Below are positions 41,773 through 54,424 of a DNA stretch of 64,000 nucleotides, piece after piece (within the stretch, counting starts at the first letter, position 1; each line of letters begins with the position of its first letter). The notes below the pieces were generated by a model. The model searched no databases. It had not been told where the DNA came from and was given only the letters and a program-made list of their open reading frames with translations. The DNA lies in assembly GCA_002368355.1 (NCBI GenBank), contig AP018281.1, positions 3,720,001 to 3,784,000 on the forward strand, in the 5' to 3' direction. A program made the position numbers and the translations under genes. This DNA comes from Chondrocystis sp. NIES-4102 (GTDB lineage Bacteria; Cyanobacteriota; Cyanobacteriia; Cyanobacteriales; Xenococcaceae).

Positions 41773-42744
41773 TTATTGATTCATAGTTTTAGTTTCCAAC
41801 CACTTGATAACTTCTTTACCCAAACTAACATCATTTAAGCGATCTATTTCCCTAATTCCCGTTGGACTAGTAACATTAACTTCTGTTAAATAACCACCAA
41901 TAACATCAATACCAACAAAATAAAGCTGATCAATTTCAAGTTGAGGGGCTACAACAGCACAAATTTCTTTTTCCCTTGGAGTGATCTCTACTTTAGCTGC
42001 TTTTCCTCCCACTGCCATATTCCCTCGAAACTCATCACCACTAGGAATACGATTAACCGCCCCAATTGGTTTGCCATCCAACAAAATAATCCTTTTATCC
42101 CCTGCTTTAGCAGCAGGTAAATATTCTTGAACCATTACAGGTTCTTGCCCCTGTTGAGTGCTAACCTCAATTAAAGAATTAAAATTGCGATCGCCTGCTT
42201 CTAAAAATAGAATTCCTTCTCCTCCTTTACCTCCTAAAGGCTTTAAGACGGCAGACTTTTTCTCCTCCACAAATTTAGCAATTACCGATTTATCCTGACT
42301 AACGATGGTTTCAGGAATTACTGAAGCGAATTGAAGTGCATAGACCTTCTCGTTAGCATTTCTTAACCCCTTGGGAGAATTAACTACCAGTGTTTTGTTA
42401 GGATCAATTAAATCTAAGATATAAGTTGTATATAAATAAGGCACATTAACTGGAGGATCAGTACGCATAAATACAGCATCCATTTCCTCTAAACAAGTTA
42501 GAACATTCTCCCCAAGCTGATACCAGTCTGATTCTGAGTGCCAGTGTCCATCAACCAACTTTACAGGTTTTAGAGTAACCTCTTGTAAATATCCCCAGGC
42601 TTTCTCCCCAATAATACTAAGTTTATTGGCTTGAGTAATCCAAACTTGATGACCTAATAATTGCGCTGCTTCCATCATGGCAACACTGCTATCATGTCCT
42701 GGATCAAGTTTGGCTATAGGATCAATAATAAATGCGAGCTTCAC
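41773..42744 (-). CDS. gshB: Glutathione synthetase
   Basis: A 323-residue ATP-grasp enzyme. The start MKLAFIIDPIAKLDPGHDSS and the segments VFMRTDPPVNVPYLY, LKPLGGKGGEGI and the C-terminal VNVTSPTGIREI are typical. It joins gamma-glutamylcysteine and glycine. Transcribed 66 bp downstream of grxC on the same strand, the pairing known from several cyanobacteria; together they supply and use glutathione. Confidence 0.96.
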   Translation of the reverse strand: MKLAFIIDPIAKLDPGHDSSVAMMEAAQLLGHQVWITQANKLSIIGEKAWGYLQEVTLKPVKLVDGHWHSESDWYQLGENVLTCLEEMDAVFMRTDPPVNVPYLYTTYILDLIDPNKTLVVNSPKGLRNANEKVYALQFASVIPETIVSQDKSVIAKFVEEKKSAVLKPLGGKGGEGILFLEAGDRNFNSLIEVSTQQGQEPVMVQEYLPAAKAGDKRIILLDGKPIGAVNRIPSGDEFRGNMAVGGKAAKVEITPREKEICAVVAPQLEIDQLYFVGIDVIGGYLTEVNVTSPTGIREIDRLNDVSLGKEVIKWLETKTMNQ

Positions 42745-42810: not shown

Positions 42811-43065
42811 CTACAAGAGAGGATCTAATTTTCCAGCACTCTCTAAAGCATGAAGATCATCACAGCCTCCAATATGGCGATCGTTAATAAATACTTGTGG
42901 AACACTTGATCTACCATTAGCTCTTATTTTCATTTTGCCCCTAGCGTCTTCATCCCCATCAATACAGTACTCTGTATATTCAATACCCTTTTGATCTAAT
43001 AATCCTTTTGCACGGATACAAAACGGGCAACGACTCCAGGTATATATCTCTACTTTAGCTGCCAT
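42811..43065 (-). CDS. grxC: Glutaredoxin 3
   Basis: An 84-residue dithiol glutaredoxin. The active site CPFC is at residues 13-16, followed by the glutathione-binding SVPQVF cis-proline loop and GGCDDLHALE near the C-terminus. It reduces disulfides and glutathionylated proteins using glutathione. Upstream of gshB on the same strand. Confidence 0.96.
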   Translation of the reverse strand: MAAKVEIYTWSRCPFCIRAKGLLDQKGIEYTEYCIDGDEDARGKMKIRANGRSSVPQVFINDRHIGGCDDLHALESAGKLDPLL

Positions 43066-43536
43066 AATTACAGTTAATATTAAGTATTATTACGTCATCA
43101 CTATCTTAAACTGATTTGTTCTTCTTGTGAGAGCGTCAAAAGTATTTAAAACTTAACTTAAATATTAATCATTATTTTTTCAAATTACATAAACCTATTT
43201 AAATAAATTATGCTGATTTAAAAGTTTTAAATTTAAAAGTAGCCAAAATAACTATATTTTAAATACGAGTCTAATTTATATAAAAGTATTTATCAATTAA
43301 TTCAATAAATATAACTATAGATATTTAAGTATTTTAATATCTAAAATTTTTCCTGTTAATTTTAAGTATACATTTGGGAACTCTTAAATCTAAGACATAA
43401 GACTAAGGAAGTTCTCGTATTTCAGAGTCAATATACCCTTGGTTGCTAAGTTTGCCAAAGTACAGTAGTTAAAACCAGCTACGAGCCTGAAAACATAACT
43501 TCTTTGATAAGTTAACTTATATTGAACTTACATAAA
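43066..43536. other. Divergent intergenic region grxC / giant acidic protein
   Basis: 471 bp, very AT-rich, no ORF. It must hold promoters for grxC-gshB (leftward) and the large repeat protein (rightward). The only outstanding element is the 14-bp palindrome at 43507-43520. Confidence 0.45.
43507..43520. promoter_or_regulatory. Perfect 14-bp palindrome before the giant acidic protein gene
   Basis: ATAAGTTAACTTAT is a perfect palindrome ending 16 bp before the ATG at 43537. Its position inside the leader would suit an operator. The DNA is AT-rich, so chance occurrence is not excluded, and no known regulator consensus is matched. Confidence 0.3.
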
Positions 43537-46500
43537 ATGGAATCAGCAAAAATTGTTAACAAAATTCTGCTAAGTTCCCTTGCTTTTGGTGCTACCTTTG
43601 GTATAGGAATGTTAGTTACAACAAACGAGAATATACAAAAAGCCTTGATGGGTACTGGTGCAGTAGGCTCAATGGCTTGTGTCGCTGGAGCATTAGTTGC
43701 TAATAATAAAAAAGATGATCACAATCAACAAGATGATGACTCATCGGATATTCAAATATCAGAACTTCGTAGCCAAGAAGCGCAATTACAACACTCATTA
43801 AATCAAACAACCGCTCAAATGCAGGCGGTAGAAGCTGAAATCAATTCTCTACAAACTGAACACAATCAGCTATTAAGTGTAATTTCTGACTTAAATGCTC
43901 AAAAGCAACAATTAGAAGTAGATTATAAGAATTGGGATGAAGAAATAAAATCTCAACAACAAGAGATAGAAGTAGTAAGAAATCGGCTTCAATTAATACA
44001 ACAGCAAGAAGAAGAATTAAAAAGTAATATAGCTACTTTAGAAAGTAATAAACATGATCTACAAATAAAAGTAGAAGAACTATCTTCACAACATGAGCAA
44101 CTAGAACAAGTAATTTCGCCTATTGAAGAAGAATATATATCTAGTACATCTTCAACAACATTAGATCATCAAGTAAGATTATTAAATAGCGAATCATTAG
44201 TTCTCGAAGAAATAAACGAAAATGAACAAAATATAGAAGAATCCATTGAACCATTGGCAAATTCTTCTCAAACAACAAATTTAGATAATTTAGAAATAAA
44301 TAAAAACAAAAATAATATTCCAAGAGAATCTGTAGAATATTTAATTGAGTCATTAAATGAATCTGAGATAGAAATGTTTGAACCAAACATAGATCATAAA
44401 TCAGATGATTTAAATGAATCTCCCAAAGAAGAATCACTAAAAGTTGTTGAAGAAAAATTTAATTTTGAATCAGAAGAATTGCCAGAGACATCAAAATTAA
44501 GTTCATCAGTGGATAAAGTCGAAAATATAATTAGTTTCATAGACAAATCTGAAGCTGAATTTATCTTAGATGCAGTATCAGCAGAAGAAACTGAATTACG
44601 ATCAGAAGAATATAGTTTAGAGCTATTAGTCCCAGAAAACTCGGAAGATGATGAAATAATGGAAGGATGGAATAATGATAACTCCATTTCTCCAGAATCT
44701 GAATCTGAATTTGAGGATGAAGGTGAAGCATTTAGTGTCGATGCAGTAACCCTAGAAAAATCTGAATTTGAGAGTAAAGGTTTTAGTTTAGATGGGATAA
44801 TTTCAGAAAAATCTGAACTTGAGGATAAAGCATTTACTTTAGATACAACATCTGAATCGGAATTTGAAAGTGAAAGCTTAAGTTTAGAGGCAATAACCCT
44901 AGAAAACTCTGAAAGTGAAGATGAAGGCTTTACTTTAGATACAACATCTGAATTTGAAAGTGAAGATGAAGCATTGAGTTTGGATGCAATACCTGAATCG
45001 GAAGATGATCAGATAATGGCAGGATGGGATGATGACAACTCCATTTCTCCCGAATTTAATCTTGATGCAACATCTGAATCTGAAAGTGAAAGCTTTAGTT
45101 TAGATACAACATCTGAATCTGAAAGTGAAAGCTTTAATCTTGATACAACACCTGAATCGGAAGATGATCAGATAATGGCAGGATGGGATGATGACAACTC
45201 CATTTCTCCAGAATTTAATCTTGATACAACATCTGAAAGTGAAGGTGAAAGCTTTAATCTTGATACAACACCTCAATCGGAAGATGATCAGATAATGGCA
45301 GGATGGGATGATGACAACTCCATTTCTTCAGAATTTAATCTTGATACAACATCTGAATCTGAAAGTGAAGGTGAAAGCTTTAGTTTAGAGGCTTTAACCC
45401 CAGAAAACTCGGAATTTGAGGGTGAAAGCTTTAGTTTAGAGGCTTTAACCCCAGAAAACTCTGAAAGTGAGAGTGAAAGCTTTAGTTTAGAGGCAACACC
45501 TGAATCTGAAGATGATCAGATAATGGCGCAATGGGATGATCATAACTCCATTTCTGACGAATTTAATCTCGATACAACATCTGAAAGTGAAGGTGAAAGC
45601 TTTAGTTTAGAGGCTTTAACCACAGAAAACTCGGAATTTGAGGGTGAAGCATTTAATCTAGATACAACACCTGAATCTGAAGACAATGAATTAATGGCGC
45701 AATGGGATGATCATAACTCCATTTCTTCAGAATTTAATCTTGATACAACATCTGAAAGTGAAGGTGAAGCATTGAGTTTGGATGTAACACCTGAATCGGA
45801 AGATGATCAGATAATGGCAGGATGGGATGATGACAACTCCATTTCTCCCGAATTTAATCTTGATACAACATCTGAATCTGAAAGTGAAAGCTTTAGTTTG
45901 GATGCAATACCTGAATCGGAAGATGATCAGATAATGGCAGGATGGGATGATGACAACTCCATTTCTCCCGAATTTAATCTTGATGCAACATCTGAATCTG
46001 AAAGTGAAGGTGAAAGCTTTAATCTTGATACAACATCTGAATCTGAAAGTGAAAGCTTTAATCTTGATACAACACCTGAATCGGAAGATGATCAGATAAT
46101 GGCAGGATGGGATGATGACAACTCCATTTCTTCAGAATTTAATCTTGATACAACATCTGAATCTGAAAGTGAAGGTGAAAGCTTTAGTTTAGAGGCTTTA
46201 ACCCCAGAAAACTCGGAATTTGAGGGTGAAGCATTGAGTTTAGAGGCTTTAACCCCAGAAAACTCTGAAAGTGAGAGTGAAAGCTTTAGTTTGGATGCAG
46301 TAACCTCAGAAACATCGGAATTTGAAAGTGAAAGCTTAAGTTTAGAGGCAATACCTGAATCTGAAGACAATGAATTAATGGCGCAATGGGATGATCATAA
46401 CTCCATTTCTGACGAATTTAATCTTGATACAACATCTGAATCTGAAAGTGAAGGTGAAAGCTTTAGTTTAGATACAACATTTGAATCTGAAAGTGAAAGC

Positions 46501-48612
46501 TTTAGTTTAGAGGCAACACCTGAATCTGAAGACAATGAATTAATGGCGCAATGGGATGATCATAACTCCATTTCTGACGAATTTAATCTTGATACAACAT
46601 CTGAATCTGAAAGTGAAGGTGAAAGCTTTAGTTTAGATACAACATTTGAATCTGAAAGTGAAGGTGAAAGCTTTAGTTTAGATACAACACCTGAATCTGA
46701 AGACAATGAATTAATGGCGCAATGGGATGATCATAATTCCATTTCTCCAGAATTTAATCTTGATGCAACATCTGAATCTGAAAGTGAAGGTGAAAGCTTT
46801 AGTTTAGATACAACATCTGAAAGTGAAGGAGAAAGCTTTACTTTAGATACAACACCTGAATCTGAAGATAATGAATTAATGGCGCAATGGGATGATCATA
46901 ACTCCATTTCTGACGAATTTAATCTTGATACAACATCTGAATTTGAAAGTGAAGGTGAAAGCTTAAGTTTAGAGGCTTTAACCTCAGACAACTCGGAATT
47001 TGAGGATGAAGCATTTAGTTTAGAGGCTTTAACCTCAGACAACTCTGAAAGTGAGAGTGAAAGCTTTAGTTTAGATACAACATCTGAATCTGAATTTGAA
47101 AGTGAAGATGAAAGCTTAAGTTTAGAGGCAATACCTGAATCGGAAGATGATCAGATAATGGCAGGATGGGATAATGACAACTCCATTTCTGACGAATTTA
47201 ATCTTGATACAACATCTGAATTTGAAAGTGAAGGTGAAAGCTTAAGTTTAGAGGCTTTAACCTCAGACAACTCGGAATTTGAGGGTGAAGCATTTAATCT
47301 AGATACAACATCTGAATCTGAATCTGAATCGGAAAGTGAAGATGAAAGCTTAAGTTTAGAGGCAATACCTGAATTTGAATCGGAATTTGAAAGTAAGAGT
47401 GAAGCATTTAGTTTAGATGCAACACCAGAATCTGAAGATGATCAGATAATGGCAGGATGGGATAATGACAACTCCATGTCTCCAGAATTTAATCTCGATA
47501 CAACACCCGAATCTGAAAGTGAAGGTGAAGCATTGAGTTTGGATGCAGTAACCCCAGAAAACTTGGAATTTGAGGGTGAAAGCTTTAGTTTAGATGCAAC
47601 ACCAGAATCTGAAGATGATCAGATAATGGCAGGATGGGATAATGACAACTCCATGTCTCCAGAATTTAATCTCGATACAACACCCGAATCTGAAAGTGAA
47701 GGTGAAGCATTGAGTTTGGATGCAGTAACCCCAGAAAACTTGGAATTTGAGGGTGAAAGCTTTAGTTTAGATGCAACACCAGAATCTGAAGATGATCAGA
47801 TAATGGCAGGATGGGATAATGACAACTCCATGTCTCCAGAATTTAATCTCGATACAACACCCGAATCTGAAAGTGAAGGTGAAGCGTTTAGTTTAGAGGT
47901 AATAACCCCAGAAAACTCGGAATTTGAGGATAAAGCATTTAATCTAGATGCAACACCTGAATCTATATCTGAATTTGAAAGTGAGAGTGAAGCATTTAGT
48001 TTAGATACAACATCTGAAAGTGAAGGTGAAGCGTTTAGTTTAGAGGTAATAACCCCAGAAAACTCGGAATTTGAGGATAAAGCATTTAATCTAGATGCAA
48101 CACCTGAATCTATATCTGAATTTGAAAGTGAGAGTGAAGCATTTAGTTTAGATACAATACCCGAATCTGAAGATGATCAGATAATGGCAGGATGGGATAA
48201 TGATAACTCTATGTCTCTAGAATATAATTTAGATGCAACATCTGAATCTGATGATGAAGGTGAAGCATTTAATTTAGATGGGATAATTTCATCTGAGAAT
48301 GATTTTATTATTGAGTCTGAATCTGAATTATTTAGTATAGAAGAAGATCAATCTAATAACTTCAATGTTTCTATGGACGAATTTATTGCTCAAGATGATT
48401 TTCAAACAGAAGTGGGATTAAATTGGGAGCAAGACTCAAGTGAATTAAGTTCTTTGGAATCTGTTGAAGAAAAGTTGGGAGAACTAAATAAAATTTCTGA
48501 CGAATCATTGGAAGAATTAAATGATTTATTAATTTCTGTTCAAGATGATCATTTAGTTCAAGGCAATAAAGAATTAGATGAAATTTACAAAGAAGACAAG
48601 ATAAATAGTTGA
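43537..48612 (+). CDS. Giant acidic repeat protein with membrane anchor and coiled coil
   Basis: A 1691-residue protein from the ATG at 43537 (an upstream TTG at 43522 is rejected). Two hydrophobic segments at about 9-27 and 36-55 could form a membrane hairpin. Residues about 75-195 are a Gln/Glu-rich heptad coiled coil. From about residue 369 to 1565 the protein is Ser/Glu/Asp-rich and holds 18 copies of a Trp-centred motif, typically SEDDQIMAGWDDDNSIS or SEDNELMAQWDDHNSIS, separated by F-x-L-[DE] units in SESE linkers. I see no arginine after about residue 355 and one cysteine overall. The last 100 residues are a non-repeat acidic helical region. A strong terminator follows. Not recognised; a multivalent scaffold or cation-binding protein is possible. 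Confidence 0.85.
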   Translation: MESAKIVNKILLSSLAFGATFGIGMLVTTNENIQKALMGTGAVGSMACVAGALVANNKKDDHNQQDDDSSDIQISELRSQEAQLQHSLNQTTAQMQAVEAEINSLQTEHNQLLSVISDLNAQKQQLEVDYKNWDEEIKSQQQEIEVVRNRLQLIQQQEEELKSNIATLESNKHDLQIKVEELSSQHEQLEQVISPIEEEYISSTSSTTLDHQVRLLNSESLVLEEINENEQNIEESIEPLANSSQTTNLDNLEINKNKNNIPRESVEYLIESLNESEIEMFEPNIDHKSDDLNESPKEESLKVVEEKFNFESEELPETSKLSSSVDKVENIISFIDKSEAEFILDAVSAEETELRSEEYSLELLVPENSEDDEIMEGWNNDNSISPESESEFEDEGEAFSVDAVTLEKSEFESKGFSLDGIISEKSELEDKAFTLDTTSESEFESESLSLEAITLENSESEDEGFTLDTTSEFESEDEALSLDAIPESEDDQIMAGWDDDNSISPEFNLDATSESESESFSLDTTSESESESFNLDTTPESEDDQIMAGWDDDNSISPEFNLDTTSESEGESFNLDTTPQSEDDQIMAGWDDDNSISSEFNLDTTSESESEGESFSLEALTPENSEFEGESFSLEALTPENSESESESFSLEATPESEDDQIMAQWDDHNSISDEFNLDTTSESEGESFSLEALTTENSEFEGEAFNLDTTPESEDNELMAQWDDHNSISSEFNLDTTSESEGEALSLDVTPESEDDQIMAGWDDDNSISPEFNLDTTSESESESFSLDAIPESEDDQIMAGWDDDNSISPEFNLDATSESESEGESFNLDTTSESESESFNLDTTPESEDDQIMAGWDDDNSISSEFNLDTTSESESEGESFSLEALTPENSEFEGEALSLEALTPENSESESESFSLDAVTSETSEFESESLSLEAIPESEDNELMAQWDDHNSISDEFNLDTTSESESEGESFSLDTTFESESESFSLEATPESEDNELMAQWDDHNSISDEFNLDTTSESESEGESFSLDTTFESESEGESFSLDTTPESEDNELMAQWDDHNSISPEFNLDATSESESEGESFSLDTTSESEGESFTLDTTPESEDNELMAQWDDHNSISDEFNLDTTSEFESEGESLSLEALTSDNSEFEDEAFSLEALTSDNSESESESFSLDTTSESEFESEDESLSLEAIPESEDDQIMAGWDNDNSISDEFNLDTTSEFESEGESLSLEALTSDNSEFEGEAFNLDTTSESESESESEDESLSLEAIPEFESEFESKSEAFSLDATPESEDDQIMAGWDNDNSMSPEFNLDTTPESESEGEALSLDAVTPENLEFEGESFSLDATPESEDDQIMAGWDNDNSMSPEFNLDTTPESESEGEALSLDAVTPENLEFEGESFSLDATPESEDDQIMAGWDNDNSMSPEFNLDTTPESESEGEAFSLEVITPENSEFEDKAFNLDATPESISEFESESEAFSLDTTSESEGEAFSLEVITPENSEFEDKAFNLDATPESISEFESESEAFSLDTIPESEDDQIMAGWDNDNSMSLEYNLDATSESDDEGEAFNLDGIISSENDFIIESESELFSIEEDQSNNFNVSMDEFIAQDDFQTEVGLNWEQDSSELSSLESVEEKLGELNKISDESLEELNDLLISVQDDHLVQGNKELDEIYKEDKINS
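47422..47775 (+). repeat. Two identical 177-bp tandem copies inside the giant gene
   Basis: 47422-47598 and 47599-47775 are identical at every base (59 codons each). A third copy begins at 47776 and stays identical until about 47885, where the sequence changes from GAAGCATTG to GAAGCGTTT. Exact identity indicates a very recent duplication or ongoing homogenisation. Confidence 0.92.
47881..48157 (+). repeat. 147-bp period tandem duplication inside the giant gene
   Basis: The sequence starting at 47881 recurs at 48028 (period 147 bp, 49 codons) and is identical for 130 bp before diverging. It encodes EAFSLEVITPENSEFEDKAF and following residues. Independent of the 177-bp duplication just upstream. 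Confidence 0.9.
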
Positions 48613-48641: not shown

Positions 48642-48670
48642 AGACTTAGAAAAAATCTAAGTCTTTTTTT
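48642..48670 (+). terminator. Intrinsic terminator of the giant acidic protein gene
   Basis: AGACTTAGA (48642-48650) pairs perfectly with TCTAAGTCT (48656-48664) around an AAAAA loop, followed by six T residues. It lies 30 bp after the stop codon at 48612 and separates this gene from map. Confidence 0.88.
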
Positions 48671-48754: not shown

Positions 48755-49531
48755 ATGGGAAGCGAACAAATCACTTTACTTTCTAGTCGAGAAATTGAGA
48801 AAATGCGACGAGCAGGAGCTTTAGCAGCAGAATTGTTAGATTTTTTGACTCCAATGGTTAAACCTGGGGTTAGTACAAAGGAGATCAACGATGCTGCTGA
48901 AGCCTGGACACAAGAAAAAGGAGCAATAAGCGCACCTTTAGGATATGGACCTGCGGATAATCCTTTTACTGCGTCGCTATGCACTAGCGTTAACGAAGTG
49001 ATTTGTCATGGTATTCCTAATGCCAAACAAATACTTAAAGATGGAGATATCATAAACATTGATGTTACTCCAATAGTTGATGGTTATCATGGCGATACTT
49101 CGAGAACTTTTTTTGTTGGTACTCCATCCCCGAAAGCTAAAAAATTAGTGGAAGTCACTGAAGAGTGTTTAAGAAGAGGTATTGCAGCAGTTAAACCTGG
49201 TGCAAGAATTAATGATATAGGCGCAGCAATTCAAACCTACGCTGAGGAAAATGGCTTTTCTGTAGTTAGGGATTTTGTAGGACATGGAATAAGCCATATT
49301 TTTCACACTGCGCCCCAAATTCCTCATTATTATGATCCAAGACAGAAAAGGAAATTAAAACCAGGAATGGTATTTACAATTGAACCAATGATTAACGAAG
49401 GTACTTGGGAAGCTGTTATGTTAGATGATGGTTGGACAGCAATTACCAAAGATGGCAAGCTATCCGCTCAATTTGAACATACTATTGCTGTTACTCAGGA
49501 TGGAGTCGATATTTTAACTTTAAATAATTAA
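48755..49531 (+). CDS. map: Type I methionine aminopeptidase
   Basis: A 258-residue enzyme from the ATG at 48755; the in-frame TTG at 48701 would add a hydrophobic 18-residue leader absent in the family. Metal ligands are Asp103 (INIDV), Asp114 (YHGDTSR), His177 (GHGISHIFH), Glu210 (FTIEPM) and Glu241 (QFEHT); His85 lies in VICHGIP. It removes the initiator methionine from nascent proteins. Its last 4 bp overlap the 3' end of the convergent prmA. Confidence 0.95.
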
Positions 49532-52153: not shown

Positions 52154-54424
52154 ATGAACTCATCCAGTAATGGCAATAGCGAATATCTCGCCAGCAATAG
52201 CAAGCTACATCATGATCAAGACAATGGTACTAATTCCGCCAGTAGTGTCATTAGTGTTTTGATTGTTGATGATCAAAAAATGATTAGGGAGGGATTAAAA
52301 GCCTTAATTAAGACAGAACATGAGCTTGAAATAGTAGGCATTGCCGAAAATGGTGAAGATGCTGTTAAACAAGTGGAATTGCTTCGCCCTAACGTTGTTT
52401 TAATGGATATGGAAATGCCAGGAATGAATGGCATGGAAGCAACTCAGATTATTTGCCAGAGGTTTAATGATGTTAAAGTCTTAGTACTTAGTACTTTTGA
52501 TAATCCAGAATATGTTTCTCGATCTCTAGGTTCGGGAGCGATGGGTTACTTGCTAAAAGGCACTCCTGCTAAAGAATTGACCGATGCTATTAGATCAGTT
52601 CATCGTGGTTATGCTCAAATTGGCCCAGGAATTTATCGTAATTTAACTTTACCTCAATTAGAAGAAGCAGGAAAACTATCCTTAACTTCTCCTTTGGCTA
52701 CTCGTATTAAGGAAGTAGAAAGTCGTCCTGAGCGTTCATATCCACCTGGGGAATTGGTAACTACTAACTCCAGTAATCAAACCGCAGCTTTAGTTAATCG
52801 TAATCCTGGTGGTATTAGTCCGCGTAAATTTGAGCAAACGGTAATTTTACGTCGATCGCCGAAATGGTCTAGAGCTATTATCTGGGGAGTGATTAGTGTT
52901 ACTACTTTTAGTTTGATTTGGGCTTATTTTGCCAAGATTGAACAGGTAATTGCTACTCAAGGGATCATTCAACCTAGTGATAAGTTGCAAGAAATACAAG
53001 TACCTACTAATGGTGTGGTACAAGAAGTTAAGGTAAAGGAAGGGCAACGGGTACAAAAAGGTGATGTACTATTAGTTTTAGATTCTACTACTTCTAAAGC
53101 ACAAGTAAATTCTTTAGACCAAGTACGCAAGTCTTTGAGCGAGGAAAATAAATTTTATCGAGACTTGATGACGGGGAAAATTGATTCTAAAAATATTAAT
53201 AGTGCGATCGCTAAGTCGGAAATGTCCCAAGCAATTGTTAATTTAACTCGTAATCGTACTGCACTTAAAGAAGAAAATGAATTGTTTAATGCTCTTTTAG
53301 GGCGTTCTGACAATAATCTTAATCCAGAGCAAAATGCTAGATTAGAAGCATCTCAAGCTGATATACAGCAACGTACTGCTGCTGCTAGATTGGAAGTGGA
53401 ACAATTGGAAAGGCAGTTGGAACAAAATCGCATTCAATTGGATGATAATCGCGCCCAGTTGGCTACAGCTAAACAGAATTTGGCAGAAATTAAGCAGCGC
53501 AACCAAGAAGCGATGAGACAGGCGCAAGAAAGTTTGCAAATTGAACAGCAGACTCTAAAAGCTCTTTTACCTGTATTTGCTGAAGGGGGTATTGCTAAAT
53601 ATCAAGTTGATCAACAAAGGCAAAAAGTTAATGACCGCAATGCTACTATAGTTAATGCCCAAAAAGAAGGTAATTTGGAACGCGATCGCCAACAGCAAGA
53701 AGTAACTACTCTACAAGCGGAAATTCAACGTCTATTACAAGAGGGGCAAAGATTAAGTCTTGATATTTCTCAAGCAGGGCAACAATTAAATAATACTACC
53801 ACCCTCTCGAAAAAAGAACTCTTAGATCAGATCGCGGAAAATCAAAAGCGGTTGTCAGAAATTGATAGTCAGCTTAATAAAACGATTGTGGAAAATGATA
53901 AACGCATTGCTGAAATTGATAGCCAAATGAGTAATGCGCAACAGAATCTTAAGTATCAAACTATTATCGCTCCTGTTACAGGAGATGTTTTTGATCTGCG
54001 TGCTTATCCTGGTTATGTACCTCCCGCAGGTCAAGCAGCCCGACCTGTTTTGCAAATTGTACCTACTGAGGATTTGATTGCGGAAGTATTTATTACTCCT
54101 CAAGATATTGGTTTTGTTAAAAAAGGTATGAATACAGATGTTCGTATCAGTGCTTTTAATTATAGTGATTATGGAGATATTAAAGGTAAAGTTGAGTTTA
54201 TTAGTGCTAGTGCTTTAAAACCTGAACCTCCTTATGATTTTTTCCGCTATGTTGCCAAAATTAATTTGGATCAAGATTATCTCAATATTAATGGTGAGAA
54301 GAAATATATTCAGCCTGGTATGGAAGTTCAAGCAAATATCCGCATTAATGAAAACCGCACCGTTTGGGATTTGTTTGTGGGTAAATTTGTTGGCGGAATT
54401 GAAAAGATTAAGGAGTTAGAGTAA
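52154..54424 (+). CDS. Response-regulator receiver fused to HlyD-type adaptor
   Basis: A 756-residue protein in one uninterrupted frame. Residues 33-152 form a complete receiver domain of the NarL type: Asp39/Asp40, phospho-acceptor Asp85 (LMDMEMPG), Thr114 (VLSTF) and Lys135 (GYLLKG). A linker (153-238) without any helix-turn-helix leads to one membrane helix (239-260) and a HlyD membrane-fusion region: biotinyl-lipoyl half (VPTNGVVQEVKVKEGQRVQK), a long coiled coil (about 310-600) and the second half with VTGDVFDLRAYPGYVPPAGQ. HlyD adaptors bridge an inner-membrane ABC exporter to TolC; none adjoins here. The receiver would be cytoplasmic, so phosphorylation could gate export. That is inference. 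Confidence 0.9.
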   Translation: MNSSSNGNSEYLASNSKLHHDQDNGTNSASSVISVLIVDDQKMIREGLKALIKTEHELEIVGIAENGEDAVKQVELLRPNVVLMDMEMPGMNGMEATQIICQRFNDVKVLVLSTFDNPEYVSRSLGSGAMGYLLKGTPAKELTDAIRSVHRGYAQIGPGIYRNLTLPQLEEAGKLSLTSPLATRIKEVESRPERSYPPGELVTTNSSNQTAALVNRNPGGISPRKFEQTVILRRSPKWSRAIIWGVISVTTFSLIWAYFAKIEQVIATQGIIQPSDKLQEIQVPTNGVVQEVKVKEGQRVQKGDVLLVLDSTTSKAQVNSLDQVRKSLSEENKFYRDLMTGKIDSKNINSAIAKSEMSQAIVNLTRNRTALKEENELFNALLGRSDNNLNPEQNARLEASQADIQQRTAAARLEVEQLERQLEQNRIQLDDNRAQLATAKQNLAEIKQRNQEAMRQAQESLQIEQQTLKALLPVFAEGGIAKYQVDQQRQKVNDRNATIVNAQKEGNLERDRQQQEVTTLQAEIQRLLQEGQRLSLDISQAGQQLNNTTTLSKKELLDQIAENQKRLSEIDSQLNKTIVENDKRIAEIDSQMSNAQQNLKYQTIIAPVTGDVFDLRAYPGYVPPAGQAARPVLQIVPTEDLIAEVFITPQDIGFVKKGMNTDVRISAFNYSDYGDIKGKVEFISASALKPEPPYDFFRYVAKINLDQDYLNINGEKKYIQPGMEVQANIRINENRTVWDLFVGKFVGGIEKIKELE

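Follow-up and report, generated by a model that had tools for sequence, protein, structure and literature searches.

A giant acidic protein of Chondrocystis sp. NIES-4102 with a SepT-related N-terminus and 18 tryptophan-centred motifs

We analysed a stretch of 64,000 nt from Chondrocystis sp. NIES-4102 (contig AP018281.1, positions 3,720,001 to 3,784,000 of the forward strand; hereafter the window), in which one intact open reading frame encodes a giant acidic protein of 1,691 residues (Table 1). The frame can begin at a TTG (43522-48612) or at an ATG (43537-48612), and the alignment of the family described below favors the ATG. The terminator-like hairpin behind the gene is not significant in itself, shuffled sequences averaging 2.4. 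Further downstream in the window (52154-54424, plus strand) lies a frame of 756 residues in which a response-regulator receiver domain is fused with HlyD and biotin-lipoyl membrane-fusion domains, a pairing that we find unusual.

Table 1. Features at and around the giant open reading frame (positions in the window)
Feature	Position	Strand	Basis or remark
SepT-related giant acidic protein, whole gene, 1,691 aa	43537..48612	+	
Two N-terminal hydrophobic segments, residues about 6-29 and 36-56	43552..43704	+	hydropathy; conserved in family alignment; homologous to SepT-type hairpin
Coiled coil, residues 66-196	43732..44124	+	AlphaFold2 helix 66-234; alignment
Acidic pre-repeat segment, residues 197-368	44125..44640	+	one EYLIESLNESEI element at residue 267
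Arginine-free repeat region, first to last of 18 tryptophan motifs (residues 369-1562)	44641..48222	+	F-x-L-[DE] stickers between
Conserved C-terminal helical module, residues 1632-1691	48430..48609	+	
Terminator-like hairpin and T run	48642..48664	+	sole one found between 43000 and 49000
Glutaredoxin gene, divergent neighbour of giant ORF	42811..43065	-	context only
Glutathione synthetase neighbour	41773..42744	-	context only
M24 metallopeptidase (methionine aminopeptidase-like), downstream of giant ORF	48761..49531	+	context only

By hydropathy the protein has no hydrophobic stretch beyond the two N-terminal segments. Lysines 5, 9, 58 and 59 flank this hairpin on both outer sides, which suggests that both of its ends are cytoplasmic, as is predicted for SepT. 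AlphaFold2 models residues 66-234 as one long helix, with ten-residue pLDDT means of 90-98 across residues 71-190 and of 55-77 beyond. Residues 1-66 score below pLDDT 50, so that the hairpin, which is not modelled with confidence, stands on hydropathy and homology.

The motif [DE][DN][EQ][IL]M..W[DN], represented by the peptide SEDDQIMAGWDDDNS, occurs in 18 copies over residues 369-1544, and all 18 tryptophans between residues 376 and 1620 sit inside these copies. The looser pattern [ILFVMW]M..[WF] is found 18 times in the tail, as against 0.4 times in 200 shuffles (maximum 2). Stickers of the form F-x-L-[DE] number 52 in the protein and mostly follow each other at 13-27 residues, with irregular spacing (27, 17, 15, 13, 19). 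The whole protein contains six arginines, the last of them at residue 355, and the final 1,336 residues contain none where 66 would be expected at the 4.97% rate of 19 other open reading frames of the window. The net charge of the tail is -445; the computed pI, 4.05, is the lowest value that the program can return. Residues 1535-1606, which include the last motif, are mostly below pLDDT 50 and the C-terminus forms a helix in the AlphaFold2 model, which leaves the central repeats outside; this makes the motif look like a short linear motif within a disordered tail. The description given in the initial annotation is thus borne out for the two hydrophobic segments, for the 18 tryptophan-centred motifs, for the stickers recurring in an acidic background and for the absence of arginine from that background, and its coiled coil agrees with the predicted helix. 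As readings of the sequence, its membrane tether (from the hydrophobic segments and their homology to the SepT-type hairpin) and its multivalency (from the 18 copies) also stand, while its disorder holds for the one repeat unit that was modelled, the remaining repeats lying outside the model.

Part of the array has been duplicated recently at the DNA level, with a 147-bp period at 100% and a 177-bp period at 96% match (Tandem Repeats Finder), so the identity among the 18 copies is, taken alone, no evidence of selection. The ratio pN/pS is 0.35 in the 18 motif units versus 0.57 in 62 sticker units, a contrast that is weakened by homogenisation, since the motif copies are partly recent duplications. 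The residues following the motif tryptophan differ (DDDN, DDHN and DNDN in the window protein; ESAA, ADES and FAEE in relatives) and so do not resemble a fixed metal loop.

We find no convincing match for the tail and the C-terminal module in Pfam, NCBIfam, PADLOC or PDB sequences. The initial annotation had recognised no characterised family in the protein, and for the motif this still applies, no confident match to a known domain having been found in these four collections; for the N-terminal part it does not, as this part is homologous to SepT-type proteins. Against PADLOC the window protein matches no family at E 0.01, the SngA profile included. The NCBIfam model TIGR04523 covers the coiled coil and scores far under its cut-off. 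A viral origin was also considered and rejected, as no relative was seen among the viral contigs scanned. The literature on cyanobacterial acidic-repeat proteins yielded nothing on the window protein and no study of a member of its family.

The family considered here is the window's own, in the Pleurocapsales; it includes the window's genus (g1) and a sister genus represented by one genome (g5). With the first 234 residues as query, the N-terminus is found in 35 of 60 relatives and in 24 of 26 within the family, the two misses being genomes that are 78% and 76% complete (G021 and G026). A mixed N-terminal profile matches 192 of the 388 genomes of the order. A composed 41-letter repeat unit matches at 18 places in the window gene and once, weakly (E 6e-4), in the homologue of G007, with no match in the other 58 of the 60 genomes; judged by these searches, the repeats are private and the N-terminus is shared. 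A scan of named genomes gave 14 loci, under the titles Pleurocapsales, Pleurocapsa, Waterburya, Myxosarcina, Hyella, Hyellaceae or Xenococcaceae.

The order of parts in the 25 family homologues is hairpin, coiled coil and an acidic tail of variable length, the coiled coil being missing in three (G018, G023 and G024). All 25 tails are acidic and arginine-poor (D+E 28-39%, R 0-6), and their repeats differ between genera, in what is a rapidly changing part of the protein. Tails of genes that are read through to a stop range from 262 to 1,495 residues. Eight of the 25 homologues are cut inside the gene by a contig end (L050, L053, L058, L062, L063, L064, L066 and L067), and complete tails are for this reason under-represented in the draft genomes. 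The C-terminal module, SLESVEEKLDELxxISDESLEELNDLLxSVQ, is shared by 13 homologues with aligned ends, and its profile matches 19 of 27 family genomes and none of the other 361 among the 388 genomes of the order (E 0.001). In six of the eight family genomes without the module the gene runs off the contig (G005, G009, G015, G016, G017 and G022), and in the remaining two (G021 and G026) the N-terminus is not matched either. In G003, G008, G010 and G011 the module is encoded in a frame of its own, with runs of N at that place in G008 and G011; in G003 and G010, where there is no such gap, the genes may be broken or the assembly in error. A profile comparison gives the module a probability of 0.1% against TerB-C, and we therefore rejected the idea that it is a remnant of that domain.

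SepT (All2460) of Anabaena sp. PCC 7120 has two N-terminal transmembrane segments, coiled coils and a TerB-C domain, and its gene is flanked by two P-loop NTPase genes, the product of one of which co-precipitates with SepT (PMC10653889). Its authors name Pleurocapsa among the genera with SepT homologues and suggest functional divergence outside the heterocyst formers (PMC10653889). We judged homology against SepT-type proteins that share the architecture and gene order of SepT, not against All2460 itself, and the reading of these loci as SepT orthologues rests on their match to published SepT in both respects. In a profile-profile comparison (hhalign) the family aligns with the SepT-type N-termini at 99.7% probability (E 2.3e-26). 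With the hydrophobic part alone, seven of eight sequences from outside the family beat all 250 class-preserving shuffles; the eighth, L080, scores 4.2 bits against a shuffle maximum of 11.0. Two weak matches, L081 and L083 (in G033 and G056), were left out of the alignments because their C-terminal parts look unrelated. The sequence evidence that the hydrophobic segments and coiled coil of the window protein share ancestry with the SepT-type proteins is strong.

Outside the family the shared N-terminus often continues into a different C-terminus, and many of these proteins end in TerB-C. Pfam's TerB_C is found in two of the five outside proteins scanned (L079 and L080; not L069, L071 or L082), and a genome search finds it in five of the 60 relatives, the genome of L069 among them, and in none of the 27 family genomes. 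The last 160 residues of the protein of L079 are resembled in 17 of 19 further SepT-type loci (exceptions L180 and L183), a set that covers 19 of 20 loci, L185 (G058) being left out. Four SepT-type proteins (L176, L177, L178 and L179, in G255, G190, G228 and G271) reach 836-1,189 residues, and three of them retain a TerB-C-like end; we read these as another lineage that has lengthened a SepT-type protein, by a different route.

The SepT-type block consists of a DUF815 ATPase gene, the SepT-type gene and a BrxC/D ATPase gene. Among the first 34 loci fetched, eight are of SepT type, with a DUF815-type gene upstream in four and a BrxC/D-type gene downstream in four; in the 19 further loci these counts are 13 and 12. 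L079 has both genes and a helicase gene, its downstream gene being the only one scanned with Pfam. Titles retrieved on DUF815 include none about its function. In the family outside g1 and g5, DUF815 lies directly upstream in 10 of 11 loci, the exception (G018) having it elsewhere, and is full-length in 11 of 13 genomes, the missing two being the incomplete G021 and G026. No full-length DUF815 is found in the 13 g1 genomes or in the single g5 genome; four g1 genomes give weak matches (E 5.5e-5 to 5.2e-4), of which one barely reaches the cut-off. BrxC/D is full-length in two of the 27 family genomes (G020 and G022), away from the SepT-related gene, with a broken piece in G002. The genome of the window, which encodes MreB and SepF, gives no match to TerB-C, DUF815 or BrxC/D. 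The block with two P-loop NTPase genes is not present at the window locus, where glutaredoxin and glutathione synthetase genes and an M24 peptidase gene stand instead, and an adjoining glutaredoxin gene is seen at 12 loci of the SepT-related gene, that of the window included. Elsewhere, in G042, a gene of 276 residues with hairpin and coiled coil and without TerB-C (L071, 8242-9072) has directly upstream a DUF815 fragment with two stops, where the ATPase seems to have been lost independently.

A tree of 35 N-termini, which omits three family rows lacking the coiled coil as well as 14 of 27 SepT-type rows, splits the family from the SepT types (100/99) and unites g1 and g5 (97/94). In our view the ancestral layout was DUF815 followed by a SepT-type gene, and the most economical account would start from an ancestor with these two and perhaps BrxC/D. 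In the family, TerB-C would then have given way to the acidic tail and C-terminal helix, and on the branch to g1 and g5 DUF815 would have been lost, the gene placed beside glutaredoxin and the aromatic motif spread. That one branch carries both the DUF815 loss and the motif is a single coincidence and not a test.

In relatives the motif typically takes forms such as TESEDLMQGFAEESE and TESDGLMEGWADDSE. The pattern [ILFVMW]M..[WF] is present in at least one copy in 11 of 13 g1 genomes, the window's own included, and in two copies in the g5 genome (G016). It exceeds all 200 shuffles in six g1 genomes (G000, G004, G007, G008, G010 and G012) and in G016, does not exceed them in G002, G003, G006, G009 and G011, of which the G009 and G011 sequences are cut or gapped, and is absent from G001 and G005. 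None of the 11 homologues of other genera exceeds the shuffles, and copies occur there solely in G019 (two, shuffle maximum 3). The excess is thus confined to the clade of g1 and g5 (7 of 14 versus 0 of 11), with several tails incomplete: those of g4, g5 and g6 end at contig ends, and for this reason the absence from g4 and g6 is not firm. A degenerate DNA pattern for the motif, which misfits the window's own copies as these carry Q before I, gives 15 matches over the 13 genus genomes (reversed control 1), 11 in the gene family and four elsewhere; three of the four lie in frames of 18-48 codons and the fourth (G005:C368) was left out. We also considered that the tryptophan motif could be an amplified older element, seen as L[IV]xS[LF]xESEL in the family, FPFSELIDSL in some SepT-type linkers and LLIDSINE in TerB-C. 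This is unsupported: the printed motif copies score -7.1 to +1.9 with the matrix of the element, whose best matches in 27 SepT-type proteins are equalled by 5 to 324 of 500 shuffles.

SepT is found at the periphery and septa and requires its transmembrane part for localisation; its reported partners are SepT itself, ZipN, SepF, FtsW, MreB, RodA and SepJ, and its mutants are altered in cell size, wall growth and nanopores (PMC10653889). On balance we consider it somewhat probable that the window protein is a strongly remodelled SepT relative, serving as a membrane scaffold of division or envelope growth with a disordered, partner-docking tail; the homology is strong, the function inferred. The protein would be anchored in the cytoplasmic membrane, its tail reaching into the cytoplasm, and would assemble via the coiled coil and perhaps also the C-terminal helix. 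Like SepT, it would act as a scaffold where the cell divides and along its periphery, touching proteins of the divisome and elongasome. One folded partner would dock on the multivalent array of 18 [DE]xx[LI]MxxW units, whose solubility and spacing the acidic Ser/Glu/Asp linkers would maintain, and the tail would thereby gather many partner copies at the membrane. The recurrence of the motif in the differently built tails of g1 and g5, together with the lower pN/pS of the motif units, favors such a binding role. The function may also have changed relative to SepT, because TerB-C and both ATPases are without match in the genome. Pleurocapsales are known for multiple fission. A bolder version, which we put forward tentatively and with considerable doubt, is that in one cyanobacterial clade a division protein exchanged its TerB-C end, with the links of that end to an ATPase and a helicase, for a giant multivalent tail. 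This would be a new kind of bacterial membrane scaffold: some 18 near-identical docking sites of LMxGW type, amplified on the branch that lost DUF815, would have taken over the gathering of division or wall-synthesis machinery, possibly for multiple fission.

Alternatively, the protein could be an acidic, membrane-tethered brush that buffers Ca2+ or Mg2+ or sets the local charge, the tryptophan motifs being minor. The charge of -445 fits this, as does the acidity and scarcity of arginine in all 25 tails, which persist though the repeats differ by genus. However, a pure brush has no need for [LIF]MxxF/W units that recur in the differently built g1 and g5 tails, the tryptophan is followed by acidic residues that vary, and no metal-binding family is matched in the domain searches, and we regard it as unlikely. 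A slightly less likely option still is that motifs and F-x-L-D stickers self-associate into membrane-attached droplets that involve no dedicated folded partner. The 18 motifs, the 52 stickers with their spacing and the disordered look of the one modelled repeat unit are what such a condensate former might show, but so high a negative charge with few basic residues should oppose self-association, and conservation of a longer pattern is not required of a pure sticker.

We find it improbable that slippage and recombination simply expanded a low-complexity linker, neutral or nearly so, for which solubility and the C-terminal helix would be all that is needed. The units are indeed DNA duplications, up to 100% identical, tail length and repeats vary as described, and two g1 genomes lack the pattern; but six g1 genomes and G016 hold the pattern above shuffle level in different surroundings, the 1,336 residues hold no arginine, the frame is intact in the window, pN/pS is 0.35 and the C-terminal module is retained after the tail. 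Finally, a folded beta-rich array, as might be suggested by the alternating F-x-L pattern and by the Pfam model Ig_J (51.3 bits for the whole protein and 55.3 bits for residues 372-1531, cut-off 29), seems very improbable, as a fragment of 151 residues reaches 15.8 bits (E 0.015), so that no single stretch of ordinary length passes and the score appears summed over repeats, and as the sticker spacing is irregular and the one modelled unit is mostly below pLDDT 50 (central repeats outside the model).

We thus prefer the docking scaffold, and its relation to SepT gives a concrete place to look for the role of the protein: an apparent orphan giant is now tied to a family with a known mutant phenotype, and its function is therefore testable. 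The comparison further suggests that, in Pleurocapsales, a septal protein family can trade its conserved end and ATPase partners for a disordered multivalent tail.

The anti-phage system Shango comprises SngA, SngB and SngC (PMC10250203). When L079 and L069 were scanned, the block of L079 (4247-9009, G037) matched these profiles, its ATPase that of SngB (E 6.5e-187), its helicase that of SngC (1.4e-250) and its TerB-C protein the C-terminal part of SngA (1.2e-18). Downstream of the SepT-type gene, tblastn places the ATPase and helicase in L167, L168, L170-L173, L182 and L184 as well. Judged from this match, a published septal protein may be related, as a membrane-tethered form, to a defence system, a likeness that the main text of the SepT paper leaves unmentioned, the words 'Shango', 'phage' and 'disordered' not occurring there (PMC10653889). 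Unlike Shango, SepT-type proteins have an N-terminal hydrophobic hairpin and a coiled coil, and the window protein is without PADLOC match in a genome without TerB-C or BrxC/D match.

We do not class the window protein as SepT, because TerB-C and the gene block were looked for and neither was found; it is SepT-related, with a different architecture. Like SepT it has two N-terminal hydrophobic segments, a coiled coil and a homologous N-terminus, as compared with SepT-type proteins and not with All2460, and like SepT-type genes most family homologues outside g1 and g5 have the upstream ATPase gene. Unlike SepT it is without TerB-C, its genome is without a BrxC/D or DUF815 match, and it has a giant acidic repeat tail with another C-terminal helix; its relatives are cyanobacteria that form baeocytes and not heterocysts. 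A parallel is offered by acidic disordered bacterial scaffolds such as PopZ and SpmX of Caulobacter, in which an acidic disordered segment stands beside oligomerising helices or a membrane anchor and recruits partners, and from these the window protein differs in its size, its motif and the number of its repeats.
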